Below, in pieces: positions 31,125 to 48,372 of a DNA stretch of 64,000 nucleotides. Source of the stretch: Flavivirga abyssicola (lineage in GTDB: Bacteria > Bacteroidota > Bacteroidia > Flavobacteriales > Flavobacteriaceae); assembly GCF_030540775.2 (NCBI RefSeq), contig NZ_CP141266.1:2591001-2655000 (forward strand), read 5' to 3'. Both the position numbers and the translations under genes were made by a program. The notes beneath the pieces were generated by a model that was given only the letters and a program-made list of their open reading frames with translations, was not told the DNA's origin and searched no databases. Numbering within the stretch: position 1 is the stretch's first letter; every line of letters starts with the position of its first letter.

Positions 31125-31829
31125 TTAACAGACATGCTTTTTATAATAGCGATTTAGCTCACCAGCATCGGCTCCCATCCATTTTTTTAGATGAATTCTC
31201 CAATAGTAATATTGCAATTTCCATATACCATTTTTGCAGTAACATCTCGCTGAGGTTGTTAGCCATTTTTGAATGACAACAAATTGTTTGCGTTCGTATA
31301 GTTTAGCAATTAAATCATTGTCTTCATAAATAGTGAAATCCTCATTATAACCTCCTATCTCATTAAAAAGTGTCGTTGTTATAAATTGGCTTTGATCGCC
31401 TCCTCTACAAGCTTTCCAAGATAAACGGGTTAGTTGACCAGCGAGTTTGAGCCACAAATGATTGCTGTTGAATTTCATTTTAAAACAGCCAGCGTTGTTA
31501 TCTTTTTTAACTTCATTTATAATTAGAGTGTCAAAGTTTTTAGGAGGAAATGAATCGGCATGTAAAAAGTAAAGAATATTGCCTGTAGCGTATTTTGCTC
31601 CTAGATTCATTTGTTTAGCACGACCTTTTGATGAATTATGAAGATTTATTTTTACGGATTCGGATTTGAATTTTGAAACGATGTCCAGAGATTTGTCAGT
31701 GCTACCACCATCTACAATAATTATTTCAGCTATATTTTCTTTAGACGAATTTTCTAAAAGATGAGTAAGCAGATTTCCAATATGATCTGCTTCGTTTAGC
31801 ATAGGGATGATTATTGATATTTTACTCAT
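31125..31829 (-). CDS. TIGR04283-type arsenosugar-locus glycosyltransferase
   Basis: A 234-residue family 2 glycosyltransferase: IIIPMLNEADHI at the N-terminus, VDGGSTDKS (39-47) for nucleotide-sugar binding, FLHADS as the DxD-like loop, and GGDQSQF with the GGYNEDFTIYEDNDL motif later. This matches the TIGR04283 family, which co-occurs with arsM and arsS. It probably adds a sugar or sugar alcohol to an arsenic-containing intermediate or its lipid carrier; the exact step is not known. It overlaps the upstream DUF547 gene by 8 bp and is the last gene of the locus. Confidence 0.87.
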   Translation of the reverse strand: MSKISIIIPMLNEADHIGNLLTHLLENSSKENIAEIIIVDGGSTDKSLDIVSKFKSESVKINLHNSSKGRAKQMNLGAKYATGNILYFLHADSFPPKNFDTLIINEVKKDNNAGCFKMKFNSNHLWLKLAGQLTRLSWKACRGGDQSQFITTTLFNEIGGYNEDFTIYEDNDLIAKLYERKQFVVIQKWLTTSARCYCKNGIWKLQYYYWRIHLKKWMGADAGELNRYYKKHVC

Positions 31830-32676
31830 TTAAATTCCAGTTATAGTCTTTAAAATTCTTTTTTGCTTTGTCAGAAATAGTGATGTCTGAGTATTGATTA
31901 AGAAAATCGATTAACGTACCTGTTTGTTTAAAATCTTTAGCAAACCATTGAAATATTTTCGAAAGACCAAGTGTGTTTTCAGAAATAGTATTTCTTTCAG
32001 GGTCATTTAGAAACTCTTTAGTGGCATTAGTTAGTTGTTTATCCATGCTTGATGCAGTGTAAGCGTTGTTTTGTAATTTAGGACAGGAAAAAGAAGCACA
32101 AACAATAGCAAAATGAATCCTAGGTTCTTTCATTTTACGTAAAATCTGATGTTCAATTTCGTTTAAATTATACCATTTTTCATCAAGTTTCCAAAAACGT
32201 TGTTCCCAAGGTTTTTTTATGTCTTTAATACTTTTAATGGGGTAATAACGTAAAATTAAATCAATAGTCATAGCATTATAAGCATTAATCCAATAGGCAA
32301 GTTTAGCTTCTTTGGACCAAGAATCTTGTGGTGTATGTTTGCCTAAATAAGTAATATAATTTACTAATTCGTTTCGATCAGATTTAAAGGCCTTGTAGTT
32401 AACAAGACCTGTATTTGAGACATGTTTTTGTAAAAGAGTATTCCAGGTGGAATGATTAAAAGCTTTTGTCGGTTTTATTTTTTCTAAATCCTCTTTTTTC
32501 TCTTCTTCAATTTTTTTCTTTTGAAGAGTTATAGTGTCTGTTTTTTGATTAATAATCTCATCAGTTTTTACTGAATCTACTTGTTTATTTTTTGTTGGCA
32601 TATTTTCCGTAATACGTTTTGCGCCAGAACAAGATGATAAAGTAATAAGGGCCAATAACATTATAAGGTACTTCAT
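31822..32676 (-). CDS. DUF547 domain-containing lipoprotein
   Basis: The 284-residue protein has a lipoprotein signal with Cys16, a Lys/Glu-rich linker (about 25-68) and a DUF547 domain with YWINAYNAMTIDLILRYYP and IVCASFSCPKL. In the paralogue at 20143 the latter motif is VCGALGCPPL, so the second Cys-Pro is conserved. Role unknown. The 8-bp overlap with the TIGR04283 transferase implies coupled expression and places it in the arsenosugar locus. Confidence 0.88.
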   Translation of the reverse strand: MKYLIMLLALITLSSCSGAKRITENMPTKNKQVDSVKTDEIINQKTDTITLQKKKIEEEKKEDLEKIKPTKAFNHSTWNTLLQKHVSNTGLVNYKAFKSDRNELVNYITYLGKHTPQDSWSKEAKLAYWINAYNAMTIDLILRYYPIKSIKDIKKPWEQRFWKLDEKWYNLNEIEHQILRKMKEPRIHFAIVCASFSCPKLQNNAYTASSMDKQLTNATKEFLNDPERNTISENTLGLSKIFQWFAKDFKQTGTLIDFLNQYSDITISDKAKKNFKDYNWNLNE

Positions 32677-33472
32677 TATAGTATTTTTGAATGCTTAATA
32701 TTATGAAAAAGTTTCTAATAGTTTAAATGTTAGAGGACTTATAATGGCTGTTATTGGTGATGTAAGCAACCAAGATAGTCGTATTTTGCTTATCATTTTG
32801 ACGTTATAAATTGAAAGTTCTTACTACAACATGTGAATTTTATATTTAAAGAGTAATTAAATGTATTTGTGGTGATTTGCTGCTTAGTGAGTAAGTCTCA
32901 CGTTTTAGTTGGTTTAAAGAAAAAGCCAAAGCTCACTTTTTTAAATTCTAAAATTTAAAAAGATATTGCTAAGGCTTTTTGGGGGCTGTATATAGTAACC
33001 CTTAACGCCACTACTTACAAATTACATTACTATTATAAGGTATAATAAGGGGTAGATCGTCTAACTCGTATAAGGGGCTACTAAATGTATCTGCTTAATA
33101 AGAAGTTTTGTCCTATTCTGGGGTAGGAATTCCGTGGACTTTATATTGGTTTTACTGTGAGAGAGTAAGGGTATTACCATTGTTTTAATTCAGATTTGGG
33201 GCATTTAATAATGCCAGCAAAATTCGAAAAAAAAAGTTACCTCTTAGGGATAAAAAATTATCCGAAAGGGATTAATTAGAAGTTATTAATAAATGATATT
33301 GTTATTCTAAAAGAAATTGTTAAGTAAAAAGTATATTGAAAAGGTTTGTCTTTCAGAGTCTTACGCAAAAAGATAAACAGTAGGGAGGTACTTGTTTATG
33401 AGAAAGTACCCTGAAAATGTTTAAAAGAAGATTTACAATAAAAAAAAGAAACTGTCTAAAAAGTGGTTAACC
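32677..33472. other. Long noncoding region, nothing assigned
   Basis: These 796 bp lie inside an otherwise compact locus and carry no credible gene on either strand. Small structures seen: GGCATT-TAAT-AATGCC at 33200-33215, GGTACTT...AAGTACC at 33387-33410, and a repeated ATAAGGGGxx near 33044 and 33078. A small RNA, a lost gene, or a long regulatory leader are all possible. Confidence 0.4.
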
Positions 33473-33607
33473 TTGTCATTCAGAGCAACGCGAAGCATCT
33501 TATTTTACTCATAATCAGAGTTATTTATTTTATAGAGATTCTTCACAGCTTCGCTGATTCCTTCGAAACAAAATATATTTTGTTTCTCGGTAATATTCAG
33601 AATGACA
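33473..33607. repeat. Dispersed element with TTGTCATTC/GAATGACA ends
   Basis: The 135-bp element begins TTGTCATTCAGAGC and ends CAGAATGACA in inverted orientation. Inside are GCGAAGCATC and a near-inverse, GATTCTTCACAGCTTCGC, so the whole can fold as a long hairpin. It lies 35 bp downstream of the arsM stop codon and could act as its 3' hairpin. Confidence 0.7.
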
Positions 33608-33642
33608 CTTTTTAGATAGTCTCTTCTTTTTTGAAAAATTGA

Positions 33643-34614
33643 TTAACAGCACCCACCACCATCGTAATGGTAGGTCGATTCTGAAATATAAATATCATCT
33701 CTATTTAATGCTTTTAATACTCCTGCTGTTTTATCACAAATAGCTAAAGGCTGATTTTTTAATAATACATGGCCCGCATTATCATCAAAATAATCTTCAT
33801 TTCCATAATAAATAGCTGCTTTGCCAGTAAATATACAAGGCCCATCAACAGGCATGGGGTCTTTTATTGCGGCTACTTCAATAGATTCTATATAAATTAA
33901 CTCATCTGTTGGATAATTTTTAGGGTCTAGTATTCTATAGGGCTTTCTGGCTCTAATTTCGATAGTACCAAAACCTGCATCCGTTAGCGCCTTTACATAT
34001 TCTGCAATTGGTAAACTGCCACTTAAGCATAAAGCACGCAGTCTTTCATCATTACGTAACGTATTATTCATCGGTTGTTCGCATGTTGGGTCACTCATAA
34101 CTAATCTACCATGAGGCTTTAAAACGCGATACATTTCTGCAATGGCTTTTTTAAGATCGTCTGCTTTAAAAATATTAAATAAACAGTTCTGGGCAGCCAC
34201 GTCAATACTATTATCCTCCACAGGAAGGTTCATAGCGTCACCTTTTTTAAGGTCTACAAACTCACTTTTAAACCAATCATTTTGAGCTTCGGCTTCAATG
34301 AAATTTTTGCGTGATGCTTCTAACATTTCATCCACAACGTCAACACCTACAACACCTCCTTTTTGACGATTAAAATAAGCGAATTGTAACAATTCCATAC
34401 CGCCACCAACACCAACATAAAGCATTTTTGGATTGTTCGTTAAATCACGAGCATGAACTGTGCTTCCACAGCCATAATTCATCTCTTGCATGATTTTTGG
34501 TATTTTTAAACCAGGGAGTTCCCAAATAGGGTTTGTCGTGCAACATAATCCAACATCGGGTGTTATGGCAGCTTCTTTATATACATCGTGAGTGGTTTCT
34601 AAATAATTACTCAT
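33643..34614 (-). CDS. arsM: Arsenosugar-type arsenite methyltransferase
   Basis: The protein uses S-adenosylmethionine to methylate As(III), supplying the dimethylarsenic unit of arsenosugars. The 323-residue product has the SAM-binding loop YVGVGGGMELL (66-76) and the ArsM-type cysteines: Cys24-Cys25 (GLCCTTN), Cys49 (YGCGS), Cys144 and Cys196. The last two residues are also Cys (GGGCC), suited to binding arsenic. This matches the arsenosugar-biosynthesis branch of ArsM rather than the arsenic-detoxification branch. It is downstream of the phosphorylase gene on the same strand, with a repeat-rich gap between. Confidence 0.92.
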   Translation of the reverse strand: MSNYLETTHDVYKEAAITPDVGLCCTTNPIWELPGLKIPKIMQEMNYGCGSTVHARDLTNNPKMLYVGVGGGMELLQFAYFNRQKGGVVGVDVVDEMLEASRKNFIEAEAQNDWFKSEFVDLKKGDAMNLPVEDNSIDVAAQNCLFNIFKADDLKKAIAEMYRVLKPHGRLVMSDPTCEQPMNNTLRNDERLRALCLSGSLPIAEYVKALTDAGFGTIEIRARKPYRILDPKNYPTDELIYIESIEVAAIKDPMPVDGPCIFTGKAAIYYGNEDYFDDNAGHVLLKNQPLAICDKTAGVLKALNRDDIYISESTYHYDGGGCC

Positions 34615-34795
34615 AGTTTCAATATTCTGTGTTTAATACTTTAGTGTTCAGTGTTCAGTGTTCAGTGTTCGGTGCTCATTTTGTAGTCTGGGTTTTCGCC
34701 TATTTATCTTTGTGTCTTAGCGAGAATTACAAAGTATTTAATGAACAAGTGTTCAGTTTATAACTGCCTATTGCCACTGAATACTGCTAACTGTT
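34615..34795. repeat. Intergenic gap with a 7-bp tandem repeat and a dispersed repeat
   Basis: AGTGTTC occurs four times in tandem at 34643-34670, with a fifth imperfect copy to 34677. At 34776-34795, next to the phosphorylase stop, the minus strand reads AACAGTTAGCAGTATTCA, nearly identical to the sequence at the start of the MORN-like gene (16944). Neither is coding here. Confidence 0.6.
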
Positions 34796-35608
34796 TTATA
34801 GTGTTTTTATAAGTTCTTTAAACAAAGTTATCATATCGGGTTCTGCTTTTGCTGCATTTTCAATGATATCAGATATGTTAACAGGTTCTAAGTTGTCAGG
34901 ATCGCATTCATCTGTTAAAACTGACACGGCCGCTACTTTTAATTTTAAATGGTTTGCTACAATAATTTCTGGTACTGTGCTCATACCAACCGCGTCCGAC
35001 CCAATAATTTTTAACATCCTATACTCCGCTTTTGTTTCTAATTGCGGCCCTACAACACTGGCGTAAACACCTTTGTGCAATTTGATAGTATTCGCTTTTG
35101 CAATGTTTTCAAATTTCGAATTGATTTCAGCATCATAAGGCGCACTCATATCTGTAAAGCGTTCTCCCAGCTCTTCAACACCTTTGAATGCTAAAGGAGA
35201 GCTGCCTTGTAAATTAATGTGATCTTCAATAAGCATCAATTCCCCTTTTTTAAAGCTTAAATTAATGGCCCCAGCGGCATTAGAAACTAATAATGTCTTG
35301 ATGCCTAACTTTTCCATAATGCGAACAGGGTAGGTAACATCTTGTAATGTGTAGCCTTCATACAAATGAAAACGCCCTTGCATGACTATAATTTTTTTAC
35401 CAGCAAGTTCGCCATAAATTAGCTTTCCTTTATGAAACTCAACTGTTGCTGTTGGGAAGTTAGGAATATGATTATAACTAACTTCTTTTATAATATCTAT
35501 TTCGTTGATGAGTTGCCCTAGCCCTGTGCCAAGAATAATGCCAATTTCAGGACTTTCAAAACCTTTGTCTTGTAGGTATTTAGTGGTTTCGTTTATATAT
35601 TTTATCAT
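34796..35608 (-). CDS. Purine-nucleoside phosphorylase
   Basis: The enzyme cleaves purine nucleosides with phosphate to give free base and ribose 1-phosphate. The 270-residue protein has GTGLG (27-31), MQGRFHLYEGY (76-86), LLVSNAAGAIN and VVGPQLETKAEYRMLK, all typical of trimeric PNP. Within the arsenosugar locus its likely job is to release adenine from the deoxyadenosyl-arsenic product of ArsS, leaving an arsenic-bearing ribose 1-phosphate for the glycosyltransferases. The enzyme family is certain. The pathway role is inference from gene context. Confidence 0.92.
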   Translation of the reverse strand: MIKYINETTKYLQDKGFESPEIGIILGTGLGQLINEIDIIKEVSYNHIPNFPTATVEFHKGKLIYGELAGKKIIVMQGRFHLYEGYTLQDVTYPVRIMEKLGIKTLLVSNAAGAINLSFKKGELMLIEDHINLQGSSPLAFKGVEELGERFTDMSAPYDAEINSKFENIAKANTIKLHKGVYASVVGPQLETKAEYRMLKIIGSDAVGMSTVPEIIVANHLKLKVAAVSVLTDECDPDNLEPVNISDIIENAAKAEPDMITLFKELIKTL

Positions 35609-35685
35609 ATTATGTTTTTGGAATTAATAATTGAGAAATATAAGTTTTATTCTTTTAAAAAAATATGATTTTTATATAAAACGCC

Positions 35686-36417
35686 TTATTTAATTACCAG
35701 CTTTTTAGAAATGCTTTGTCTATCTGAAATTGCAGATAAAATATAAATTCCGGATTTAAGGTTTGATACGTCTATATCATTATTTAATCTCACTTCGCTT
35801 TGGTGAACAACTTTTCCTAATGCATTAAAAATACGTATTTGAGTTAATGCATCAGTTGGACTGGAAATTCTAACGATACTACTTGCAGGATTTGGAAAAA
35901 TAGAGGTTTTGTTAAATGCATTTTCTTCAATGTTTAAAACACTACTACAATTAGTGGCATTAAAAGAAGTAAAACTACCAAAATCCCAAAATTGATCGAA
36001 TGCCAGGCAATAAAAGAATACGCGATCAAAATCTTCAATATTTTTTCCGTTGGGAATATTAACAGTAAATGACTTTGCTCCGTTTGAGGGTATGGCGGGT
36101 ATACATCCTGTACATCCAACTAATCCAAATTCGATATTATCTAAATCTGCAATTTCAGAGTTTCTTAAAGTAGCATCAGAAGCACCATTTGAGTTAACTA
36201 GATATGCTCTAATATCTGGACCTCCGGCTGTTTGAAAATTTGTGCCTAAATCTAAGGAGACTGTATTATTGTTATTGAGTGTTACGGTAACGTCTCCAGA
36301 TACATTATAAGACGAAATATTAGTGTTGTTTCCAAAACTACTTGCGGATGTAGCACACTGAGAAATGCCTATTTGGGTTGTTAAAGATAAAATGAATAAT
36401 AGTAAAAATTTTTTCAT
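35686..36417 (-). CDS. DM13-like protein with T9SS C-terminal sorting domain
   Basis: The 243-residue product has a signal peptide (about 1-20). Its central domain has GGPDIRAYLVNSNG, AKSFTVNIPNGKNIEDFDRVFFYCLAFDQFW, which resembles DM13, a predicted redox domain with a conserved Cys. A C-terminal T9SS type A sorting domain follows (IFPNPASSIVRISS to the terminal KLVIK). It should be exported by T9SS and attached to or released from the surface. Its place inside the arsenosugar locus is unexplained. The DM13 call is from motif shape and moderately sure. Confidence 0.8.
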   Translation of the reverse strand: MKKFLLLFILSLTTQIGISQCATSASSFGNNTNISSYNVSGDVTVTLNNNNTVSLDLGTNFQTAGGPDIRAYLVNSNGASDATLRNSEIADLDNIEFGLVGCTGCIPAIPSNGAKSFTVNIPNGKNIEDFDRVFFYCLAFDQFWDFGSFTSFNATNCSSVLNIEENAFNKTSIFPNPASSIVRISSPTDALTQIRIFNALGKVVHQSEVRLNNDIDVSNLKSGIYILSAISDRQSISKKLVIK

Positions 36418-36512
36418 GACGATTTTTGGTATTGTTTAATAATGAATATAATTTCATTACTAAGTCGCTACCATTTAGAAATAATTTCACCCTATCTTAA
36501 ATAATTAATTAT

Positions 36513-37142
36513 TTATAGACTTAATGGTTTGATTTTTTCTTGTAATTCTAAATTAGATTTATAAAATTCTGAGGTTACTAAGTCTTCAAAAGTATCAATA
36601 TCGTTCAGTGTTTCTAAGGTAGTATATTCGATTTTATTTGATTTTAATTCTGCTAAAGTTACTTCTAATAATGAGTCTTCACTCCAAGGTTTATTGTCGA
36701 AAACCATATCAATCATTTTAGATAAGCCTATTAAATAATAGCCTCCGTCTTCTGCTGGTCCAAAAACGACATCATTATGCTTTAAGGCCTTTAGACCTTT
36801 GTTGATATGTTGGGCAGTAATATCAGGTAAATCCGAACCAATTAAGGTAATACGTTCATAGCCATCATCAAACCCTTTTTTAAACGCATGTTTCATGCGC
36901 TCGCCTAAATCGATACCCTTTTGTACCGCTTTATATTGGTTTTGCCATTTTGTATCTATCACAGCATCCGAAAAGTAAATACGTTTATCTGCTTCTAGAT
37001 GCCGAGTAGCTTCTTCGGTAACTTTAACCAATTCAGCATATACATCGAAAGCACCTTGATTACCAATGGTTTTGGCGAGGCGTGTTTTAACTTTTCCTAG
37101 CTTAATGTTTTTTACAAAAACGATAACAAGTTCTTTATTCAT
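36513..37142 (-). CDS. TIGR04282-type arsenosugar-locus transferase (DUF2064)
   Basis: The 209-residue protein is a nucleotidyltransferase-like GT-A fold with all family motifs: KLGKVKTRLA (14-23) for nucleotide binding, LIGSDLPDI, VFGPAEDGGYYLIGL and a C-terminal NDIDTFEDL. It matches TIGR04282, linked to arsenosugar biosynthesis. It may activate or transfer a sugar phosphate moiety. A second, divergent copy lies at 44665-45348. The gene overlaps the rhodanese gene by 8 bp. Confidence 0.88.
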   Translation of the reverse strand: MNKELVIVFVKNIKLGKVKTRLAKTIGNQGAFDVYAELVKVTEEATRHLEADKRIYFSDAVIDTKWQNQYKAVQKGIDLGERMKHAFKKGFDDGYERITLIGSDLPDITAQHINKGLKALKHNDVVFGPAEDGGYYLIGLSKMIDMVFDNKPWSEDSLLEVTLAELKSNKIEYTTLETLNDIDTFEDLVTSEFYKSNLELQEKIKPLSL

Positions 37143-37632
37143 ATACTTTTATTCCTTTTTTTAACCATTGACTCCATTTGAGAGAAAATGTGTGAACACT
37201 ATCTGTTTCTTTTTCTACAGCATTAAAAATGGGTAGATCATTGTTTTTCCATTCAAAAATACCACCAAAAAGATTTTTTACATTTTTATAACCTGCTTTT
37301 TTCAAACTATCACCTATAGATTCGGAGCGAATACCAACTGAGCAGTATACTATAATTTGAGACGCTTTATTTGGAATTTTTTTAGGAATACTGTCTATTT
37401 TAAAATGATCATATCCAACATGAATAGCATTTTTTAAATGACTTGTTTGATATTCTTTGAATTCCCTGGAATCTAAAAGGATAACATCCGTATCTAGTGT
37501 GCTTAACTCCTGGTGCGTAATATAAGGCACACTATTATCATTATATTTTTTCAATAGTTTATTAATTGACTTTTGTGCTTGCAGAAGATATATATTGCTA
37601 AAAGAAAGTAAAAATAAGATAATATATTTCAT
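37135..37632 (-). CDS. Secreted rhodanese-like protein
   Basis: The 165-residue protein has a signal peptide (1-20) and a single rhodanese domain with LLDSREFKEYQTSHLKNAIHV and the active-site loop VYCSVGIRS (Cys97). Rhodanese domains transfer sulfur through the active Cys, and exported versions can act in redox or thiol chemistry. Sulfur transfer to arsenic (thio-arsenosugars exist) is an attractive but untested role. It sits between the metallophosphoesterase-like and TIGR04282 genes, overlapping the latter. Confidence 0.87.
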   Translation of the reverse strand: MKYIILFLLSFSNIYLLQAQKSINKLLKKYNDNSVPYITHQELSTLDTDVILLDSREFKEYQTSHLKNAIHVGYDHFKIDSIPKKIPNKASQIIVYCSVGIRSESIGDSLKKAGYKNVKNLFGGIFEWKNNDLPIFNAVEKETDSVHTFSLKWSQWLKKGIKVYE

Positions 37633-37661
37633 AGTGATTTAGTCTCTCAAATTTAATAAAA

Positions 37662-38489
37662 TTACAACTGAATGCCGAACCCCTGTAATCCGCTTTCAAC
37701 AGCCGGTAAAATTTCAGTGTTATCCCAAATGCCCGTTATAATGGTTCTGGCATATTCCTTAGGCAGTAAATCATTGTTCATGAGTTTATTGGCTAACTTG
37801 TAGTTGTAATTTAGTGTGTGGTGCTCATAGCTTAAAATACCATTTTCATCATTTAAAATAGCATACCAAACGTTTGAATTGCCATCGTTAGCAGGCATAC
37901 CAATAACTCCTGGGTTTAACCAAAGTTTGTCTTCTTTTTTGTCATGGAAGGGTAGGCCACAATGACCAGCTACAATCATATCAAAATTATCTACATCAAA
38001 ATTTTGAGATTTGACGCTCCAAGGTGTCGATTTAAATATAAATTCAGAAGTATTTGAATACGATCCATGGACTACCATCACTTTTTTACCAGCGTAATTA
38101 AAGGTGATATGGTCAGGTAGTGTGTTCATGAATTCCAGAGAATTTTTTGAAAGTTTACTTTGTGCATAAGGATACCAGAGTTGTGAAAATCCATCACATC
38201 TGGAACCTTTTTTGAAATCACATCCACAATCTTCAGCACCTTCCCGAAGCTGAATTTCTACATTCCCGGCAATACTTTTAGCCTTCCAAATTTTAAAGAG
38301 TTGTACGGATTCTTCTGGTTGAGCACAATAGCCCACAATATCACCAGTGCAAATACAGTTTTCGGGAGTAATACCTTCATATTCTGCTACCAGTTTTAAG
38401 GCTTCCAAAGCCTGGAGATTACTGTAAACACCTCCAAAAAGTAATACTTTGCCAGTTAAACCATCAATATGTTCTATTTTTTTACCCAT
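37662..38489 (-). CDS. Degenerate metallophosphoesterase-like protein
   Basis: I place the start at ATG 38487-38489 (MGKKIEHIDGL), which overlaps the symporter by 16 bp; a longer frame adds an unlikely leader. The 275-residue product aligns with YfcE/MJ0936-type phosphoesterases but lacks several metal ligands. SDxHGN reads FGGVYSN (18-24), GNHE reads GNVE (75-78) and GHxH reads GHCG. GDIVG (49-53) and VVHGS are kept. It may have lost catalysis, bind a different ligand, or use another metal site. Its place in the arsenosugar locus suggests a specialised role. Confidence 0.83.
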   Translation of the reverse strand: MGKKIEHIDGLTGKVLLFGGVYSNLQALEALKLVAEYEGITPENCICTGDIVGYCAQPEESVQLFKIWKAKSIAGNVEIQLREGAEDCGCDFKKGSRCDGFSQLWYPYAQSKLSKNSLEFMNTLPDHITFNYAGKKVMVVHGSYSNTSEFIFKSTPWSVKSQNFDVDNFDMIVAGHCGLPFHDKKEDKLWLNPGVIGMPANDGNSNVWYAILNDENGILSYEHHTLNYNYKLANKLMNNDLLPKEYARTIITGIWDNTEILPAVESGLQGFGIQL

Positions 38490-39862
38490 TTTGGAAGTAT
38501 ATAAAGAATTAAACAACATAGCATGCCCCAAATATTTACCCATAGTAAATCAGCATATTTTCCTTCTGTAAAAATGAATGCCTTTGGAAACATTTCAAAA
38601 ATTAAAATGAATCCGAAAATTAAGCCACAGATCACACTTAAATAGAAGCTTATTTTAGGGACTTTAATATTCCAGAATACAAAAACAGGTGTTAGGCCAA
38701 TGACCATAGTTCCCGATATGGTTGTTGCTGATAATATTTCAGCATCTAAAAACACAGGAAGTGTTCCTAATACAGCTATAACGATCATTGAAATTCGACC
38801 AAAAGAGAGACCTGCCCCTATTTTTAAATCTACAACTAAGAGTTTTGAAAATGATGAAAATGTAGAGTCTAAAGTTGATGCGGCTGAGGTGATCATGATG
38901 AAATTTATAACCAAGAGAATGACTATGCCAAAGGCTTTGCCAACTTCAACAGCAGCCTGTCCTTTCATACCTTGCGTTTGTGCATAGATACCAATGATAC
39001 TAAATAAAATAATGCAGAAGCCACCTAAAACACTAGCTAGTAAAAAACTCCTGCGCGTTACTTTTGGTGATGCAATAAATGCGCGATCTGTTAAAACAGG
39101 GTCGTGAAAAGGGTAACTAAAAGACTGAATAATAGCTGCAAAAAATAAATTGAGCCCTAATTCAAAACTCCAGGTTCCTGACATGACCACATCTTTAGTA
39201 GAAAAATTTTCAATAGAAAATACATGCCATAAGATGACGATCAGTAATACGGAAAATAATACCATTTGTATTACATCTGTGAAAATGGAACTACTTAATC
39301 CGCCTTTAATGGTATAAGCTAATGTTAATGCAGTAAAAACAAGAATGGCTAGATAATAAGGTTGACTTCCTGTATCTCCAAAGTAACTACCAATAACCAT
39401 CGTATTACTCCAAACTTCGTTAAATAATCTTATGGCGATTAAAACGGAAAAAATGGCCATAGCACCTTTTCCAAACCTTGAAGTTAAAAACTCATGGATG
39501 CTTTTATAACCACCTTTGGTACGTATTTGATAAATTAATACACCTGCTATTGCAAATGATAGATAATAACCGGCATAAGCCACGCCACCAACTATCCCAA
39601 AATCGAGTCCAAGATTTGCAGCATTGGTAATGCTTTTGGCAAATATCCACGAGATAATTAAACTGCCTGTTAACACTATTGTATTTGGTGTTTTACGGTT
39701 GCTAACAGCTTTAAAAAACTGATCTGTGGTTTTTGCTAATGGAGACAAAAAGAATAGTACTGTGCTTGATATGATAATTAATGCCCATTGCGCCCATGCT
39801 AACCTTTCCGAAAAGAAGGAACTCTCACTCAAATAGAATGCTATGTTTAGAACGTTATTCAT
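38474..39862 (-). CDS. Sodium:solute symporter family protein
   Basis: The 462-residue inner-membrane protein has about 12-13 hydrophobic segments. It carries SSS-family features such as GYYLSFAIAGVLIYQIRTKGGYKSIHEFLTSRFGKG and an intact core KGGLSSSIFTDVIQ, where family members bind sodium. It imports a solute with Na+. In arsenosugar loci such symporters recur, so the solute may be an arsenic-containing sugar, a nucleoside or a precursor. That is inference. It overlaps the next gene's start and follows SusD by 96 bp. Confidence 0.87.
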   Translation of the reverse strand: MNNVLNIAFYLSESSFFSERLAWAQWALIIISSTVLFFLSPLAKTTDQFFKAVSNRKTPNTIVLTGSLIISWIFAKSITNAANLGLDFGIVGGVAYAGYYLSFAIAGVLIYQIRTKGGYKSIHEFLTSRFGKGAMAIFSVLIAIRLFNEVWSNTMVIGSYFGDTGSQPYYLAILVFTALTLAYTIKGGLSSSIFTDVIQMVLFSVLLIVILWHVFSIENFSTKDVVMSGTWSFELGLNLFFAAIIQSFSYPFHDPVLTDRAFIASPKVTRRSFLLASVLGGFCIILFSIIGIYAQTQGMKGQAAVEVGKAFGIVILLVINFIMITSAASTLDSTFSSFSKLLVVDLKIGAGLSFGRISMIVIAVLGTLPVFLDAEILSATTISGTMVIGLTPVFVFWNIKVPKISFYLSVICGLIFGFILIFEMFPKAFIFTEGKYADLLWVNIWGMLCCLILYILPKWVKK

Positions 39863-39929
39863 TTATTGATGTTCGAGATACTATTTGTGTTTTTTATACT
39901 GTTACTATTTCATTTAAACCCGTAATGGT

Positions 39930-39948
39930 TTCCCTCCTTCGGAGGGAT
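39930..39948. repeat. Short hairpin CCCTCC-TTC-GGAGGG
   Basis: A 6-bp perfect stem with a 3-bp loop at 39932-39946 lies just downstream of the susD stop on its strand. There is no T-run, so it is more likely an mRNA-stabilising hairpin or dispersed repeat than a terminator. Confidence 0.45.
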
Positions 39949-39958
39949 TAAGGGAGGC

Positions 39959-41404
39959 TTATTCATCCCACCATACCGGAACATTAATACTATTATTGTC
40001 TGTTGCCGCTGCTGCCTCTGCATAATTGTCGGCATTCAAAGCTTCTTCTTCGGGAGGATAGGGCATCCGAACAGGTAATATGTCATTATTCAAACTTGCT
40101 GAAATTGATTTTAAATTAGGAAATCCAGTGCGTCTGTATTCTACCCAACCTTCATAACCATTAATAATATTGGCAATCCATTTTTGAGTGATAATTTGTT
40201 CTAAAGGCGTTGCTGTTGCGGTATTAAAATTGGCATTACCAGATAAATAATCTGAAGGTAAATCCGTATTCCAATATTCAAAGGCCAGAGTAACTCCGGT
40301 TTCATATAAAACTTGTGCATCGGCAGTAATGATACCTCTTTCGGCAGCTTCTGCTAAAGCAAAATGAACCTCCCAGGCTGTAATGAAATTAGCATCTAAC
40401 GTTGAGGTGTCTTCTCTAAAAGCCGTTCCTGCAAGTGAATAATCGGCTAAAGTTACGGAGGTTGAGGTAGCATCAATACCGTTCAATAGACCATTGAATG
40501 CTCCGGAGTTAGAATTGGAAAATGGTTTGAATAATGTATTTATGCGTGGATCATTTAAACCGACTAAAATGTCTTCCATGGTTTCAGATAAAACAAAATT
40601 ATTGAAATCACCAATACGTAGTTGTGCTAGCCTAAAACTATTAGGATCTGAATTTGTAAAATTAAAAATAGCATTTTGAGCATTAGTTTTAATATAATTA
40701 TCATCGTCAAAAAGAGCTTGTAGCTGAGCGGATGTGTCCACCTTTCCTGAAATTCTAAGCAAATGTTTAATTTTTAAAGCATTGGCAAAACGAATCCAAG
40801 CCTGTAGATCGCCATTAAAAAGAATATCACCTTCTAATGGAATAGCATCATTATAATTCTCAATGGCAGTAATACCTTCATCCAAATTATCCAGAATACC
40901 ACCTTCGTTTGTGTAAATATCCTCTTGTGAGTCGTAAATAGGTGTAACAGTTCCGTTAACGCCATTAAAGGCTTCAAAATAGGGGACATCTCCAAACAGA
41001 TCGGTTAAACCAGCTGCCATATAAGCTTTTAAAATTAAAGCAGGACCTTCATAAACCTTAAATGCATCTATAGTTCTAGATTGATTTAAAATAATCTCAT
41101 TGTCTCTTAGGTTCGTGTAAAAAACCGGCCAGGGATTACCTCCCAGTTGAGGCGATTTTAAGGCGTGTCTGTCAAATAAATTAAAGTCTAAAGCTGTACG
41201 GTGTTGCGCTAGTAAATCACCAGCAACGAAACCTTCATAACTCATTTCTTCACCAAAATTATAAATGACTTGTCTCAGTAGTAGACTTGGTTGTACGGTT
41301 ACAGGTGCGTTAGGATTGGTGTTGATTTCCTCAAAGTCTTTAGTACAGCTCGTCGTTATAAAAAGACTTAAAATTGCGATGATATATAGGATGTTTTTTT
41401 TCAT
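39959..41404 (-). CDS. SusD/RagB-family nutrient-binding lipoprotein
   Basis: The 481-residue lipoprotein has Cys20 after a hydrophobic signal, then the SusD-like N-terminus DFEEINTNPNAPVTVQPSLLLRQVIY. It lies on the cell surface as a lid over its SusC partner and binds the substrate. The closing region contains YEGWVEYRRTGFP, a SusD signature. The SusC gene ends 10 bp upstream, so the two form a classic pair. Unlike glycan loci, no glycoside hydrolase or glycan sensor accompanies them; the neighbours are arsenosugar genes. Confidence 0.92.
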   Translation of the reverse strand: MKKNILYIIAILSLFITTSCTKDFEEINTNPNAPVTVQPSLLLRQVIYNFGEEMSYEGFVAGDLLAQHRTALDFNLFDRHALKSPQLGGNPWPVFYTNLRDNEIILNQSRTIDAFKVYEGPALILKAYMAAGLTDLFGDVPYFEAFNGVNGTVTPIYDSQEDIYTNEGGILDNLDEGITAIENYNDAIPLEGDILFNGDLQAWIRFANALKIKHLLRISGKVDTSAQLQALFDDDNYIKTNAQNAIFNFTNSDPNSFRLAQLRIGDFNNFVLSETMEDILVGLNDPRINTLFKPFSNSNSGAFNGLLNGIDATSTSVTLADYSLAGTAFREDTSTLDANFITAWEVHFALAEAAERGIITADAQVLYETGVTLAFEYWNTDLPSDYLSGNANFNTATATPLEQIITQKWIANIINGYEGWVEYRRTGFPNLKSISASLNNDILPVRMPYPPEEEALNADNYAEAAAATDNNSINVPVWWDE

Positions 41405-41414
41405 GTCTTTCTAT

Positions 41415-44400
41415 TTAAAAGTTAAACCCAGCTTTAAAGCCAAAACTTCTTGTTGTTGCATAGCTTAAATCTTCTACACCATTAACAAACCCGTTACCTT
41501 GAACGGCTAATTGTTCAGGATCAAAATGCGGATTTTCAGTGATTGCGAATAGGTTATTTCCGGTGATAGAAAAACTGACATCGGCACCATGTTTCAAACC
41601 TAAAAAACCATCTTTTAGTCTGAAATTATAACCAACGGCAAACTGTCGAAGTTTTAAAAAAGAAGCATCATAAATATTGTTTTCTTCATGGTTTCTGTCA
41701 AAAAACTGACGGTAATAACTTTCTGCTGTAACTGTTGTGGTATTGGGTTGACCCGTTGTTTGGTTTACACCTTGTGCAACGATACCAGTATCAGGACGAA
41801 AAGCGGTTTCAGCTAATTGACCACCAACATTTCCTAAAGCTCTTGTTCTTGAAACTATTTCGCCACCTTGCCTCCAATCGAATAAGAAACTAAGATTCCA
41901 GTTTTTATAATTGAAATTATTATTCCAGCCTAATGTGAAATCAGGGTTGTAGTTTCCTAATTTTTGTAAATTATTATCAGCAATAAATCGTCCGTCGTCA
42001 TTAATGATAAAATTACCATTGTCATCTTTTAAATAACCAGTACCGTAAAAATCGCCAATACGCCCGCCTTCTTCTACTTGAAACCAAACGGTTTGATTGG
42101 TGCTATCATAAATTCTACTGAATGCTAAAGTTAAACGACCTGCTTCTTGTGGCAAATCCTTTATAGTTGATCTATTGCTTGCAAAATTGAATGTCGTTTG
42201 CCATTTAAAGTTGTCATTTTTAATTGGGGTTATCCCCATAATAAGTTCAACGCCTTGCGTGTTTACTTTTCCACCATTGATAACTTGCTGGTTGTATCCT
42301 GAAGAAATTGCAATGGGTAAAGAGATAATTTGATCTCTTGTGGTCGCATTGTAATAAGTTATGTCAAAATTTAAGCGATCTTTAAAAAAGCGTAAATCTG
42401 CCCCAACCTCAAAACTTGTGGTTTGTTCGGGTTTTAAATTGGCATTTGGAATAAAGTTTTGATCACTGAAAGTTGGCTGCCCGTTAAAAGGCGTTTGTGA
42501 TACAAAAGCACCAGATGTTTGATACGGGCCTGTGTCATTACCAACTTGAGCAACACTGGTTCTTAATTTAGCAAATGAAAATACGTTTGGTAATTCTGTA
42601 ATATTAGATAAAATAAAACTAGCTGAAGCGGACGGATAAAAGAAGGAGGTACCATCAACCGAAAAAGGTGTTGCTAATGCGCTTGACCAATCATTTCTTC
42701 CAGTAATATCTAAAAATAAGTAATCTTTGTACCCTAATTTTGCAATACCATATAATGAATTGATCCGTTTCTCACTTTCAAATTGAAAGACCTCAATAGG
42801 AGATGCGGCATTGTTTAAATTAAAAATACCAGGCTGAGCCAAATTTACGGTTTGGGATTGTTTCGTAGATGCGGTTTGATCCAAACGATTTCCACCTATA
42901 GAAAAATCAAAAGAGAAATCACCAAATATATTTTTATAATTAATCAAGAAATCGGTATTTACTTCTCGGAACTTAACATCATGTTCTGCATAACCTCCGT
43001 TTTTAAATCGATTACTGCTAAAGTTTCTTCTCAATTGACGTGTTTCACTGCTATAGTCCATACCAGTTCTTAATGAAACACTTAAATGATCTGTGATTTT
43101 GTGATTAACCGCTATGTTTCCAAATATTCTATCGCGTTCAAACGAGTTTCTGTTTTCCAATAAAATGAAATATGGATTATCAAAAAAAGTATAGTTAAAC
43201 GAATATTGTTGTATTCCTTCTAAGCCAGGTTGCCAGTAGTCTTTAAGATTATTGATGTTCAAAGAACGGGGTCCCCATGCGACTAATGAATAATTTACAT
43301 TTTCACTGCCATAACCGTTTGAAGGTCTGTTATCGCTATTAGAATTTACATAACTAATGGAGGTGTTAATTTCCGTTTTTTCTGAAGGTTTAAAGTTGAG
43401 TTTTGCGCTAATAGTTTGTCTATCTAAATTGACTCCCGGAATAATCGATTCACTTCTTAAATCAGTAAAAGATAATCGATAATTTCCAGAGTCAAACCCA
43501 TTTGAAATAGCAATGTTATTAATGGTTGTAACACCTGTTTTATAGAAATCTTTCAGATTGTCCGGATTGGAATTGAAAGGTGTTGCTGTAATAGGTAATC
43601 CGTTATATAATGCAGTGTCTCCACCACGAACAAAACGGCCGTTAGTTAATTGGACAGGACTATCAAATTGAGGAATCAAAATGCCAGCATCTAATTTAGG
43701 GCCCCAAGAATACGTGATGTTGTCACTTGTGCCACCACCTAGGCCATCAACAAATTCAAATTGACCAGATTGTCCTTGTCCGTATTGATTTTGGAACTCA
43801 GGTAATTTAAAAGCTGAATCTATAGAAATAGATGAATTTAAACTTACTTGAAATCCTTTTTTATGATTACCATCTTTGGTTTTAATAACGATAACACCAT
43901 TTGATGCCCGTGTTCCGTACAGTGCAGCAGCATTGGCTCCTTTTAATACGGTAACGGATTCGATGTCATCTGGATTGACTTCCATGGCGCCATTTCCAAA
44001 GTCTATTTCTTGAAATCCGGCAGCAGCCTCATTTGTGAAATTAAAAATGGTTTCGTTGTTTATAGGAATACCATCTACCACAAATAAAGGGTTGTTATTT
44101 GAGAAAGATGACTCGCCTCGAATCGTAATTTTAGATGATGAACCAACTCCTGTTGCCCCTTGGGTTACTGTAACCCCTGCTAGTTTTCCTTGCAAATTAT
44201 CCAAAAAGTTGACTGTTTTTACTTCAGTTAAACGTTTCGACTTTATGGCTTGTACCGCATAGCCTAGTTCTTTGGTTTCACGTTCTAATCCTAAAGCAGT
44301 AATAACAATTTCATCGAGTGTTGATGCATCTTCAAGTAAAGTAATATTTATGGTTCTTAACTTGCCAACAGCAATGGTTTGTGTTTTATAACCCAGAAAT

Positions 44401-44609
44401 GAGAATTTGAGTTGATCTGACTCGGAAGCGACTTCTATGGTGTAATTTCCATTGTCATCTGTAGCAGTGCCTTGACCTGTGTTGGTTGTAATATTCACAA
44501 AAGGGATTGGTCTGTTACCTGTAGCATCGGTAACAGTTCCTGTAATAGTAATTTGTGCATGACTTATACTAGCAAAAACTAGCAACATGCAAAAGAGTAT
44601 GTACTTCAT
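41415..44609 (-). CDS. SusC/RagA-family TonB-linked outer-membrane transporter
   Basis: The 1064-residue protein has a signal peptide (ending SHAQ), a carboxypeptidase-regulatory-like domain (about 20-95; GTVTDATGNRPIPFVNI) and a plug domain with DEIVITALGLERE, DNLQGKLAGVTVTQG and PLFVVDGIPINN. A 22-strand barrel then ends in FKAGFNF. It imports a bound substrate using TonB energy, probably from an ExbB-ExbD-TonB system such as 52412-54408. It lies between two arsenosugar transferase genes. The substrate may be an organoarsenical, a sugar or something unrelated; sequence does not decide. Confidence 0.93.
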   Translation of the reverse strand: MKYILFCMLLVFASISHAQITITGTVTDATGNRPIPFVNITTNTGQGTATDDNGNYTIEVASESDQLKFSFLGYKTQTIAVGKLRTINITLLEDASTLDEIVITALGLERETKELGYAVQAIKSKRLTEVKTVNFLDNLQGKLAGVTVTQGATGVGSSSKITIRGESSFSNNNPLFVVDGIPINNETIFNFTNEAAAGFQEIDFGNGAMEVNPDDIESVTVLKGANAAALYGTRASNGVIVIKTKDGNHKKGFQVSLNSSISIDSAFKLPEFQNQYGQGQSGQFEFVDGLGGGTSDNITYSWGPKLDAGILIPQFDSPVQLTNGRFVRGGDTALYNGLPITATPFNSNPDNLKDFYKTGVTTINNIAISNGFDSGNYRLSFTDLRSESIIPGVNLDRQTISAKLNFKPSEKTEINTSISYVNSNSDNRPSNGYGSENVNYSLVAWGPRSLNINNLKDYWQPGLEGIQQYSFNYTFFDNPYFILLENRNSFERDRIFGNIAVNHKITDHLSVSLRTGMDYSSETRQLRRNFSSNRFKNGGYAEHDVKFREVNTDFLINYKNIFGDFSFDFSIGGNRLDQTASTKQSQTVNLAQPGIFNLNNAASPIEVFQFESEKRINSLYGIAKLGYKDYLFLDITGRNDWSSALATPFSVDGTSFFYPSASASFILSNITELPNVFSFAKLRTSVAQVGNDTGPYQTSGAFVSQTPFNGQPTFSDQNFIPNANLKPEQTTSFEVGADLRFFKDRLNFDITYYNATTRDQIISLPIAISSGYNQQVINGGKVNTQGVELIMGITPIKNDNFKWQTTFNFASNRSTIKDLPQEAGRLTLAFSRIYDSTNQTVWFQVEEGGRIGDFYGTGYLKDDNGNFIINDDGRFIADNNLQKLGNYNPDFTLGWNNNFNYKNWNLSFLFDWRQGGEIVSRTRALGNVGGQLAETAFRPDTGIVAQGVNQTTGQPNTTTVTAESYYRQFFDRNHEENNIYDASFLKLRQFAVGYNFRLKDGFLGLKHGADVSFSITGNNLFAITENPHFDPEQLAVQGNGFVNGVEDLSYATTRSFGFKAGFNF

Positions 44610-44664
44610 TAAAGTCTTGAATAATTAGTAATTGATGTCTGAAATGATTCAGAGAGAATGTATG

Positions 44665-45348
44665 TTACAAAAGAAGCAGTGCAGGAGAGCCTTTATTGAA
44701 TTGTTGTTGTAGTATGAAGTTTTCGACAAAAAATGTAGGTTTAGAAACTATCTTTTTTTCTGTCGAAGCAAATACATTGAGCAATTCTTTTATAGATATT
44801 GGAAGTGCTCTGTAACTATCAACAATTAGTTTTATATCTGAAGCTTTATCCAGGTCTGTTAAAACTTCAAGAAAAGTAATATTTAGTTTTTTCGAAGCTT
44901 TTAATTTGGTAATGCTTCTATTTAATTTTGAGGTGTTCCACGGTAATTTTAGAAATGTTTCGACATTAAAATGAGACTTTTTAATTCCCATTAAATAAAA
45001 ACCACCGTCAGTTGATGGCCCTAAAACGATGTCATGTTTTTGGAGTTTTTCAACTGTTTTTAAAATATGGTTTGTTGTTAAATGTGGGGTGTCATTTCCA
45101 ATAGTAATTACTGTATCAAACCCTTTATCGTAAACAGATTGTATGGCATTAGTAAAACGTTCTCCAAATGTTTGACCTGTTTGCTGTTTTTCCGAGTATA
45201 AGAAATAAGGTAAGCCTGCCTTTTTTACAATTCGTAATGTTTGAGCATTAAGCGTCTCAAAGATGTCTTTTGAAGATAAAAACGGTTTTAACGACGCTTC
45301 CTTTTTAGCAGAATTTGCAAATATTAATATGGCAGTTTTACTATTCAA
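44665..45348 (-). CDS. Divergent TIGR04282-like (DUF2064) transferase
   Basis: The 227-residue protein keeps TIGNDTPHL, VLGPSTDGGFYLMGI and a C-terminal TDLDKASDI of the DUF2064/TIGR04282 family. It has lost the N-terminal KxGxVKTRLA loop seen in the paralogue at 36513-37142; the same place reads NSAKKEASLKPF. It also has about 50 extra C-terminal residues without a known motif. Nucleotide binding may be changed or lost. It lies between arsS and susC on the same strand. Confidence 0.78.
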   Translation of the reverse strand: MNSKTAILIFANSAKKEASLKPFLSSKDIFETLNAQTLRIVKKAGLPYFLYSEKQQTGQTFGERFTNAIQSVYDKGFDTVITIGNDTPHLTTNHILKTVEKLQKHDIVLGPSTDGGFYLMGIKKSHFNVETFLKLPWNTSKLNRSITKLKASKKLNITFLEVLTDLDKASDIKLIVDSYRALPISIKELLNVFASTEKKIVSKPTFFVENFILQQQFNKGSPALLLL

Positions 45349-45424
45349 TATTTATAGTTTAAAATCTTAATTATAGATTTTTAAGTACTTCGATTAATAA
45401 TTCAAAGTTCTGTTAAACATCCTC

Positions 45425-46489
45425 TTATGCTACAACACCTTGACAACTGCTTCCTGCGCCTGCGGTACAGCCGTAGCAATGTTGTGAAATGACGATATTT
45501 CGTCCTTCTAATAAATCTTCGTTATATTCCGAAATATGTTTTACTTTACTATTAACTGGTAACTCTAACATTTGATTAAAATCACAATCAAATAAATAGC
45601 CGTCCCAACTTATAGAAAGAGTGTTAGTACACATCACGTTTGCAACAGCAGTCGGATTATAAGCTTCTACTAAAGCATACATATAATCTTCATAATTTTC
45701 TGATGCGATTAAATAATCAAGAAAACGTGAAATAGGTAAATTAGTAATGGCAAAAAGATTATGGAATTGAATGCCAAAATCGTCCATTAACGCCTTTTTG
45801 AAATCTTTCTCCATAGCCATTTGGTCCCCAGGTAAAAATGCTCCGGATGGATTATATACTAAATCCAATCTCAAATCACTATCCGGCATACCATATCCAA
45901 TAGCATTTAATTCTTGAAGTGCTTTTATCGATTTATCAAAAACACCATCGCCACGTTGTTTGTCAGTTTTGCCACGTGTCCAGTGTGGCATAGAGCTTAC
46001 AACATGGACATTATGCTTTTTAAAGAATTCGGGTAAATCATAATACTTTTTATTTGCTCGAATAATGGTCAAGTTAGACCTGACTATAAAATCTTTGATA
46101 CCCACTTTTGCTGCTTCCTCAACAAACCATCTGAAATCAGGGTTCATTTCGGGTGCACCGCCAGTTAAATCTAATGTATGCGCACCAGAATTTTTAATCA
46201 CCTCAAGACATTGTTGCATGGTTTCGCGAGTCATGATTTCCTTGCGGTCTGGACCTGCATCAACATGACAGTGTTCGCATACCTGGTTGCACATGTATCC
46301 CACATTAATTTGTAAAATCTCTAGTTTTTTAGCTTTTAAAGGGAATTGATTTGTTTCTGAAATCTTTTCTTTAAAAGTAGGTAATTCACCATTTTGAAAA
46401 ATACCATTAGATAGAATTTCCAATTGACGGTTACTTTGTGCTAAATCGCTTTCGCGTTTGTGTAATGATTGTGTTTTTACTTTTGTCAT
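45425..46489 (-). CDS. arsS: Arsenosugar biosynthesis radical SAM protein
   Basis: The 354-residue protein has the radical SAM cluster Cys67-x3-Cys71-x2-Cys74 (CNQVCEHC) followed by HVDAGPD, DLTGGAPEMNPDFRWFVEEA and a Cys-rich C-terminus (HCYGC, then SSCQG; Cys338, 341, 349) that may hold a second cluster. ArsS-type proteins join a 5'-deoxyadenosyl group to dimethylarsenite, the committed step to arsenosugars. Length and motifs match the ArsS family. It sits with arsM, the peroxidase-like gene and the transferases on the same strand. Confidence 0.93.
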   Translation of the reverse strand: MTKVKTQSLHKRESDLAQSNRQLEILSNGIFQNGELPTFKEKISETNQFPLKAKKLEILQINVGYMCNQVCEHCHVDAGPDRKEIMTRETMQQCLEVIKNSGAHTLDLTGGAPEMNPDFRWFVEEAAKVGIKDFIVRSNLTIIRANKKYYDLPEFFKKHNVHVVSSMPHWTRGKTDKQRGDGVFDKSIKALQELNAIGYGMPDSDLRLDLVYNPSGAFLPGDQMAMEKDFKKALMDDFGIQFHNLFAITNLPISRFLDYLIASENYEDYMYALVEAYNPTAVANVMCTNTLSISWDGYLFDCDFNQMLELPVNSKVKHISEYNEDLLEGRNIVISQHCYGCTAGAGSSCQGVVA

Positions 46490-46630
46490 GTCTATATTAT
46501 CTGAGATAATAATTTTATTTCATTGTTCATTTTGTCTTGATGCAAAACGAACCAAAAAATCAAATTAGGGCTTGACTTTCTAGTGAGTTATTTTTTATTT
46601 CAAATTATTTTTCCAACTTTCTAAACTCTA

Positions 46631-46966
46631 TTACCCGTCTAATTTATTTACTTTGTTCATCATTTGTACGCCATGAACTAAAGTGGCTCCACTTTTTATA
46701 GCGGCTCCAACATGAATCGCTTCCATCATTTCTTCCTTAGTAACGCCACGTTGTAAACCATCTTTAGTGTAAGCATCAATACAATATGGACATTGTTCGG
46801 TATGAGCAACTGCTAATGCGATTAACGATTTTTCTCTTGCAGTTAGGGCACCTTCTTCAAAGACTTTGCCGTAATATTCAAAGAATTTGTTTCCTAATTC
46901 CTCACTCCATTCAGTAATTTTCCCAAACTTTCTAAGGTCTGCGGGGTCATAATATGTTTTTTGCAT
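46631..46966 (-). CDS. Arsenosugar-associated peroxidase-like (carboxymuconolactone decarboxylase family) protein
   Basis: The 111-residue protein is of the AhpD/CMD fold with the redox motif HTEQCPYCIDAY (Cys59-x2-Cys62). A version of this family always near arsS is annotated as arsenosugar biosynthesis-associated peroxidase-like. The Cys pair could reduce an arsenic(V) intermediate or peroxides. It is the first gene of the locus in transcription order. It precedes arsS by 141 bp. Confidence 0.9.
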   Translation of the reverse strand: MQKTYYDPADLRKFGKITEWSEELGNKFFEYYGKVFEEGALTAREKSLIALAVAHTEQCPYCIDAYTKDGLQRGVTKEEMMEAIHVGAAIKSGATLVHGVQMMNKVNKLDG

Positions 46967-48302: not shown

Positions 48303-48341
48303 AATTTTTCGATTTATTATTGATTTGATAAAAAATATGTA

Positions 48342-48372
48342 CAAATATAGCTTTTTGGTGTCATATTTTCAA
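48342..48372 (-). promoter_or_regulatory. Promoter of the acyl-CoA dehydrogenase gene
   Basis: On the minus strand TATATTTG (48342-48349) matches the -7 consensus, and TTG (48370-48372) lies upstream with a 20-bp spacer. The start codon is 39 bp further on. Confidence 0.6.

Follow-up and report, generated by a model that had tools for sequence, protein, structure and literature searches.

Why should an operon for arsenosugar biosynthesis carry an outer-membrane importer of the nutrient-uptake type? The question is raised by a stretch of 64,000 nucleotides of the single-contig, 4.68-Mb genome of Flavivirga abyssicola (NZ_CP141266.1, positions 2,591,001 to 2,655,000; hereafter the window, in whose coordinates all positions are given), in which 14 co-directional open reading frames, all on the minus strand, occupy positions 31125–46966. 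In order of transcription they encode a CMD/AhpD-like protein (CMD), the radical SAM protein ArsS, a TIGR04282/DUF2064-like paralogue that we call GT82b, SusC, SusD, an SSS-family symporter, a metallophosphoesterase-like protein (MPE), a rhodanese-domain protein, a TIGR04282 protein, a DM13 protein with a type IX secretion system (T9SS) tail, purine nucleoside phosphorylase (PNP), ArsM, a DUF547 lipoprotein and a TIGR04283 glycosyltransferase. From a comparison of this locus with its counterparts, we propose that it represents a Flavobacteriaceae arsenosugar operon with a built-in five-gene module (GT82b to MPE, 37662–45348) for uptake of methylated or ribosylated arsenic upstream of ArsS, which would make ArsM dispensable; we give this reading a probability of about one half.

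Using NCBIfam and Pfam profiles at their curated cut-offs, we found in the module a SusC-type TonB-dependent outer-membrane transporter (41415–44609; TIGR04056, 636.5 bits), which forms a SusC/SusD pair with the adjoining SusD-like lipoprotein gene (39959–41404; PF12771, SusD-like_2, 310 bits), followed by a sodium/solute symporter (SSS, 38474–39862) that passed the Pfam SSF cut-off (PF00474, 26.4 bits, cut-off 22.8) and stayed under that of TIGR00813 (51.8 bits, cut-off 184), and by a degenerate, cysteine-rich MPE (37662–38489, longest open reading frame to 38543; PF12850, Metallophos_2, 42.7 bits, cut-off 27). The first module gene, GT82b (44665–45348), scored 103.9 bits against TIGR04282, under the cut-off of 134, and matched the C-terminal part of that profile (70–189), with nothing before position 70. 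Sequence searches of the PDB gave no hint of substrate for SusD, nor for SSS, whose matches there to SGLT1 and a choline transporter were weak.

The module was closely tied to arsS. A contig profile search with an MPE alignment, of which the best 80 of 259 relatives were analyzed (closest named relatives Flavivirga and Algibacter, records very near the window being possibly omitted), placed arsS on the same strand within 10 kb of MPE in 78 loci, and the two exceptions were short contigs of 6,415 and 11,632 bases. SSS directly preceded MPE in all 80 loci and GT82b stood before SusC in most module loci. The MPE strand also carried a TIGR04282-like gene in all 80, PNP in 78, CMD in 77, SusC and SusD in 74 each (the SusC match in L161 being a different SusC-like protein), rhodanese in 71, DUF547 in 67, TIGR04283 in 51, ArsM in 37 and DM13 in 17, and the operon flanks differed from locus to locus (upstream neighbors fell into 19 gene families over 69 loci, downstream ones into 30 over 75). 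At the genome level, a close MPE (E < 1e-100) was present in 51 of 397 sampled Flavobacteriaceae genomes, and all 51 had arsS, compared with 237 of the remaining 346 (288/397 overall; Fisher 3e-8). SusD copies with at least 67% identity, at most four candidates being scored per genome, occurred in 48 of the 397, all positive for both MPE and arsS, and the next matches had no more than 40% identity. Mirror-tree correlations over 70 loci (ArsS-MPE r = 0.44, ArsS-SusC 0.70, ArsS-PNP 0.75) fitted either vertical or horizontal spread.

The association extended beyond the family. Among 365 genomes sampled across the phylum, MPE was found in eight, including two further in-family carriers (G476 and G671) and four genomes from four other families of the same class. 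These last four kept the order SusC-SusD-SSS-MPE and were all arsS-positive, with arsS directly behind an MPE=CMD fusion in one, nearby on the opposite strand in another and on a different contig in two; none of the four had an arsenosugar-type ArsM above cut-off, and two gave weaker ArsM-like matches (116 and 91 bits). MPE continued in frame into CMD in 9 of the 51 family carriers (L088, L189–L196), the methionine at the CMD start being kept wherever the linker was printed, and these nine loci were compact, of the form (GT82b-)SusC-SusD-SSS-MPE=CMD-arsS. The fusion was also present in a genome outside the family (L236).

Consistently with an import point upstream of ArsS, carriers of the module were depleted in ArsM. 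Scored by NF038099 at E 1e-60, ArsM was missing from 30 of 51 MPE-positive versus 33 of 237 MPE-negative genomes with arsS (Fisher 1e-10), and from 16/33 versus 20/152 when the first genome of each genus was counted (2e-5); six of the ArsM-less carriers were single-contig genomes (G190, G215, G294, G309, G335 and G396). A second ArsM as a substitute in these 30 genomes was rejected: only G121 exceeded the PRK11873 cut-off of 263, with one stop codon reported inside the matched stretch, while 19 others gave matches of 42–71 bits and 10 gave none at E 1e-10. Moreover, in the 13 genera that were mixed for MPE among arsS-positive genomes, all MPE-negative members had ArsM, MPE-positive members lacked it in six genera, and the reverse was never seen (6 to 0, sign test 0.03). 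In five of these six genera the contrast sat in the locus itself (L056/L201, L202/L203, L094/L204, L027/L205 and L206/L190), the reading of the sixth (g172) covering its module-bearing member only. Thus, L094 reads CMD-arsS-rhodanese-TIGR04282-PNP-arsM-(297-aa open reading frame)-DUF547-TIGR04283, and its counterpart L204 reads CMD-arsS-GT82b-SusC-SusD-SSS-MPE-rhodanese-TIGR04282-PNP-FA_hydroxylase-DUF547-TIGR04283. ArsS, present in the window genome as a single copy above the TIGR04167 cut-off, showed no loss of conservation where arsM is absent: its mean identity to the window was 88.1% (n = 41) for module loci lacking arsM and 86.7% (n = 37) for those with it. Because all 51 carriers keep ArsS and many lack ArsM, the likeliest entry point of the imported compound is upstream of ArsS.

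The title of Xue 2017, as it stands in the reference list of PMC8787705, has ArsM contribute to arsenosugar synthesis "by providing DMA", and a passage of PMC12159101 describes arsenic as being adenosylated by a radical SAM enzyme in the arsenosugar pathway. In the route that we propose, SusC and SusD would carry an organoarsenical across the outer membrane, either a methylated arsenical of the dimethylarsinate type or an arsenic riboside degraded to it, and SSS would move it across the inner membrane. Imported pentavalent dimethylarsenic would need reduction, for which MPE and the CxxC protein CMD are candidates, speculatively, on the strength of their fusion and their cysteines; they might convert the import to a reduced, thiol-bound dimethylarsenic that ArsS would then adenosylate. 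Judging by family functions, PNP, TIGR04282 and TIGR04283 would respectively produce, activate and transfer a sugar-1-phosphate. With such an importer present, ArsM as the intracellular maker of dimethylarsenic would become dispensable, in keeping with its frequent absence. A fuller version of this proposal, which we hold tentatively, makes SusC-SusD-SSS-MPE a dedicated bacterial system for taking up organoarsenicals, and MPE together with CMD a new thiol-based arsenical converter built on a half-dismantled phosphoesterase; arsenosugar synthesis would thereby change from an answer to arsenite into a form of salvage that needs no arsenite methyltransferase.

The state of MPE bears on this step. 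Metallophosphoesterases bind metal through the motifs DxH, GD, GN, H and GHxH. The AlphaFold2 model of MPE (mean predicted local distance difference test score, pLDDT, 80; predicted template-modelling score, pTM, 0.85) had the metallophosphoesterase fold, with 3rqz and SapH/Spr1479 (3qfm) as the best PDB folds (Foldseek query TM 0.64–0.77), and shared with both the motifs containing D50, N76, H141 and H176. It differed from them in motif I, where DxH had become GxY (GGVY for SDVH), and in the last H of GHxH, replaced by G, so that the full two-metal catalytic set was absent; against 3rqz, SDVHAN read GGVYSN, GNHD read GNVE and GHTH read GHCG, with GD, GN, HG and the leading H of GHTH unchanged. 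These changes presumably remove metal site 1 and leave site 2. The original prediction had called this protein a degenerate metallophosphoesterase, and the kept fold with an altered motif I agrees with that description. Six cysteines were invariant in seven MPE sequences, a seventh being present in six of them; among 42 sequences C45, C55, C88, C90, C98 and C177 (numbered from the MGKK start) were invariant and C47 nearly so. Eleven homologues at 23–27% identity (L178–L188) had no arsS nearby, and the three of them that were aligned had intact metal motifs, one with DCGC.

Several observations weigh against the proposed reading. The window is one of 21 carriers, out of 51, in which module and ArsM coexist, and a further 33 genomes have arsS with neither ArsM nor module, so that the importer neither requires the loss of ArsM nor is needed for it. 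Arsenic in the substrate is a conjecture from linkage and from the absence of ArsM, and the change may have been either an acquisition of the module or a loss in an ancestor that had both module and ArsM. Six of the 80 MPE loci keep SSS-MPE without SusC/SusD, and the MPE=CMD fusion occurs in none of these best 80 loci. As for the proposed converter, C47 and DCGC are also found in homologues with intact metal sites, and the stretch of C90–C98 falls in a low-confidence part of the model (pLDDT about 49 at residues 91–100). Finally, the nearest other SusCD pairs, at 37–40% SusD identity, adjoin genes for a nucleoside hydrolase and an MTR-kinase-like protein, and most of their genomes lack arsS, from which it follows that the module substrate could be a non-arsenic riboside.

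This last point leads to the alternative that survives best, although we consider it unlikely: the module would import a non-arsenic co-substrate (a nucleoside, a riboside or a glycerol-type acceptor), and ArsM would have been lost for another cause. We read ten such cousin loci, seven of them in genomes without arsS. Seven of the ten had the order GT82b-SusC-SusD, and these included six with a nucleoside hydrolase (whose N-terminus, by eye, resembled a signal or lipoprotein sequence in some cases), three with an MTR-kinase-like gene (118 bits against TIGR01767, short of the cut-off of 275) and four with an ABC substrate-binding protein, the other loci having phosphodiesterase or phosphonate-type genes. 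Judging from this context, mostly by eye, ribosides seem to be what the cousin clade serves, except in L222, where it seems to serve a phosphonate-type gene set. The arsenosugar pathway itself handles ribosides through PNP, which also speaks for a non-arsenic riboside. However, import of such a co-substrate predicts neither the depletion of ArsM in carriers nor the fusion of MPE to CMD beside ArsS. The cousin context would equally suit an arsenic riboside or a dimethylarsinate-like ion, and is no proof of arsenic. In L214–L217 and L219–L221, GT82b-SusC-SusD is accompanied by genes for a nucleoside hydrolase, an MTR-kinase-like protein or an ABC transporter; possibly these loci salvage 5-substituted ribosides.

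Rather improbable is that the module takes up finished arsenosugars, for instance from algal food, which the operon would salvage or rebuild, ArsS being retained for rebuilding only. Many carriers belong to marine or algae-linked genera, and five of the cousin loci, in arsS-free genomes, lie at a TetR/heptosyltransferase-like/DUF4254 site that carries arsS in 17–19 of 94 arsS loci, which would fit such a role. In that case, however, ArsS should sometimes go together with ArsM, and it was kept in 51/51 carriers. Less probable again is that certain lineages are marked by both the module and the loss of ArsM with no causal link between the two, the module serving the redox or metal balance of the pathway. 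The lineages are indeed not independent, and the 33 genomes lacking both ArsM and module fit this view, but the depletion persisted with one genome per genus and in the contrasts within mixed genera.

Whether the neighbors belong to the operon at all was addressed with 94 arsS neighborhoods of 13–20 kb, hand-picked, mostly one per genus, among the roughly 150 best-scoring matches listed, and scored by tblastn at E 1e-5. All on the arsS strand, CMD was present in 93, a TIGR04282-like gene in 86, PNP in 72, ArsM in 65, DUF547 in 63, TIGR04283 in 59 and rhodanese in 59, in the usual order CMD-arsS-rhodanese-TIGR04282-PNP-arsM-(FA_hydroxylase)-DUF547-TIGR04283. SusD was found in seven loci, SSS and MPE in six each, and DM13 in eight (five co-directional); SusC matched in 15, some of these matches being other proteins. 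The complete SusCD-SSS-MPE set occurred in six: four have it, together with GT82b, in the interval from arsS to rhodanese, L086 has it without GT82b, and in L088 it lies upstream of arsS. As controls, the genes flanking the window operon appeared on the opposite strand throughout (ApaH-like 25, OMP85-like 23, AnmK 13) or co-directionally in all cases (acyl-CoA dehydrogenase 16, pyruvate carboxylase 3). Every passenger is absent from some arsS loci, but that they are mere chance neighbors is very improbable, being contradicted for rhodanese, DUF547 and SusCD-SSS-MPE by their recurrence in arsS and MPE loci and by the specificity of SusD, and weakened for DM13 by its more modest recurrence.

The original prediction had described 14 one-strand genes comprising the full known pathway set, with passengers of no known role. 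ArsM, ArsS, CMD, TIGR04282, TIGR04283 and PNP all scored above their curated cut-offs, as it had stated. The symporter, which it had counted in that set, is present and lies outside the usual arsenosugar set: SusCD, SSS and MPE form one module. The passengers, whose absence from other arsS loci it had named as a refuting outcome, do recur; treated there as one group, they are of different kinds, rhodanese and DUF547 being usual members of Flavobacteriaceae arsS loci and DM13 a less frequent one with a weaker case. Coupled function, for which it had argued from gene overlaps of 8–16 bp, is supported by this recurrence and by the presence of arsS in nearly all MPE-centered loci; we measured 8 bp for TIGR04283/DUF547, 8 bp for TIGR04282/rhodanese, and 16 bp for MPE/SSS if MPE starts at the conserved methionine (38489) rather than at the longest-frame start (38543). 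Envelope proteins are thus a regular part of arsS loci. As to its suggestion that part of arsenosugar handling takes place outside the cytoplasm, uptake would fit the data better.

The remaining genes were assigned as follows. CMD (46631–46966), the "arsenosugar biosynthesis-associated peroxidase-like protein", scored 193.6 bits against TIGR04169 (cut-off 120), its CxxC reading CPYC, and ArsS (45425–46489) 442.1 bits against TIGR04167 (cut-off 300), with CNQVCEHC as its CX3CX2C motif. The rhodanese (37135–37632; NF045521, 201.9 bits, cut-off 145) has, by eye, a signal-like N-terminus and a CxxGxRS loop, and NCBIfam holds a rhodanese model named rhoda_near_glyco. The TIGR04282 gene (36513–37142; 193.4 bits, cut-off 134; weak CofC match) encodes a DUF2064/CofC-like nucleotidyl- or glycosyltransferase, and is followed by the DM13 gene with its T9SS C-terminal tail (35686–36417; TIGR04183 59.2 bits, PF10517 29.3 bits), PNP (34796–35608; NF006054, 341.6 bits, cut-off 218), the arsenosugar-type arsenite methyltransferase ArsM (33643–34614; AsSugarArsM NF038099, 576.7 bits, cut-off 400), the DUF547 lipoprotein (31822–32676; PF04784, 104.2 bits, lipobox by eye) and the TIGR04283 glycosyltransferase of family GT2 (31125–31829; 226.9 bits, cut-off 182). 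Upstream, 193 bp from CMD and on the same strand, lies the acyl-CoA dehydrogenase gene (47160–48344), whose place beside the operon is probably old chromosomal synteny. In other arsS loci (L014 among them), a PF04116 FA_hydroxylase of about 295 aa occurred in 32/88 loci without and 58/86 with the module; it may fit arsenolipids, and it was not seen in the window operon. SusC-like matches after TIGR04283 were rejected as modules, the five examined (L026, L033, L034, L067 and L085) being same-strand proteins of 506–517 aa with a SusC-like N-terminal part.

Intergenic distances ranged from −16 to 181 bp, with the sole exception of 966 bp between arsM and DUF547 (32677–33642). This gap, omitted by the original prediction, holds no intact gene, and contains a PiT (PHO4) transporter gene of which most has been deleted; the stump, a 34-aa C-terminal remnant at about 32704–32805, has 67.6% identity (tblastn) to the PiT of the same-genus locus L004. 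The DNA alignment of window and L004 across the gap skips about 1 kb of L004, and both L004 and L200, also of this genus, have a PiT gene at the gap position and no module. The only other PHO4 match in the window genome lay in a different frame of 761 aa. PiT was found in 6 of 88 loci without the module and in none of 86 with it (85 distinct; Fisher 0.03), and the window combines the module with the PiT stump only. We read this, with caution as to its direction, as an exchange of importers. An FA_hydroxylase remnant in the gap was unconvincing (best E 0.74). The gap also contains a dispersed repeat of about 160 bp (33465–33625), with six more genomic copies spanning at least 130 of 161 bases at 92–95% identity, plus partial copies.

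Compared with the ArsM-ArsS arsenosugar pathway of Synechocystis, as outlined in passages of PMC8552651, the locus has the same ArsM and ArsS families and adds a two-membrane uptake module, a signal-bearing rhodanese, a DUF547 lipoprotein and transferases; in contrast to that pathway, most sampled module carriers lack the arsenosugar-type ArsM. The arsQML arsinothricin cluster, treated in the same source, likewise joins a radical SAM gene, ArsM and a permease, but its permease is proposed there to be an exporter, whereas the SusC type argues for import here. A plasmid locus of Roseomonas haemaphysalidis (L198) carries a degenerate MPE of 38% identity with cysteines 47, 88, 90, 98 and 177 and the motifs GGPYSN, GNCE, DCGC and GHCG, so the degenerate pattern extends beyond Bacteroidota. 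As in the module, this MPE lies directly behind a transporter and near TIGR04282, DUF547, a TIGR04283-like transferase and two radical SAM genes; unlike the module, the transporter is a PhnD/PhnE-type ABC system and the radical SAM proteins are not ArsS above cut-off. The same run has matches, far below cut-off, to the NCBIfam Rv1680 and Rv1681 family models. In Bacteroidota, SusCD nutrient uptake loci place a SusC-SusD pair beside an inner-membrane transporter. The module shares this arrangement, but it has no glycan-degrading gene and its SusD clade was confined to arsS-bearing genomes among the 397 sampled.

A 2025 review, mainly of human context, says in one of its passages (PMC12608789) that how arsenobetaine, arsenosugars and arsenolipids are taken up is for the most part unknown, and a literature search covering few subscription journals found no publication whose title or abstract opening describes a SusC-SusD-SSS-MPE module. 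The arrangement is a novel form of arsenosugar locus, for which comparative genetics gives good support and whose chemistry is putative. If the proposed uptake of organic arsenic is true, organoarsenic uptake could be put to direct test through a specific module shared by named bacteria, of which many are in culture; arsS without arsM could point to organisms relying on organic arsenic from other producers, and the way genomes are read for arsenic cycling would change.

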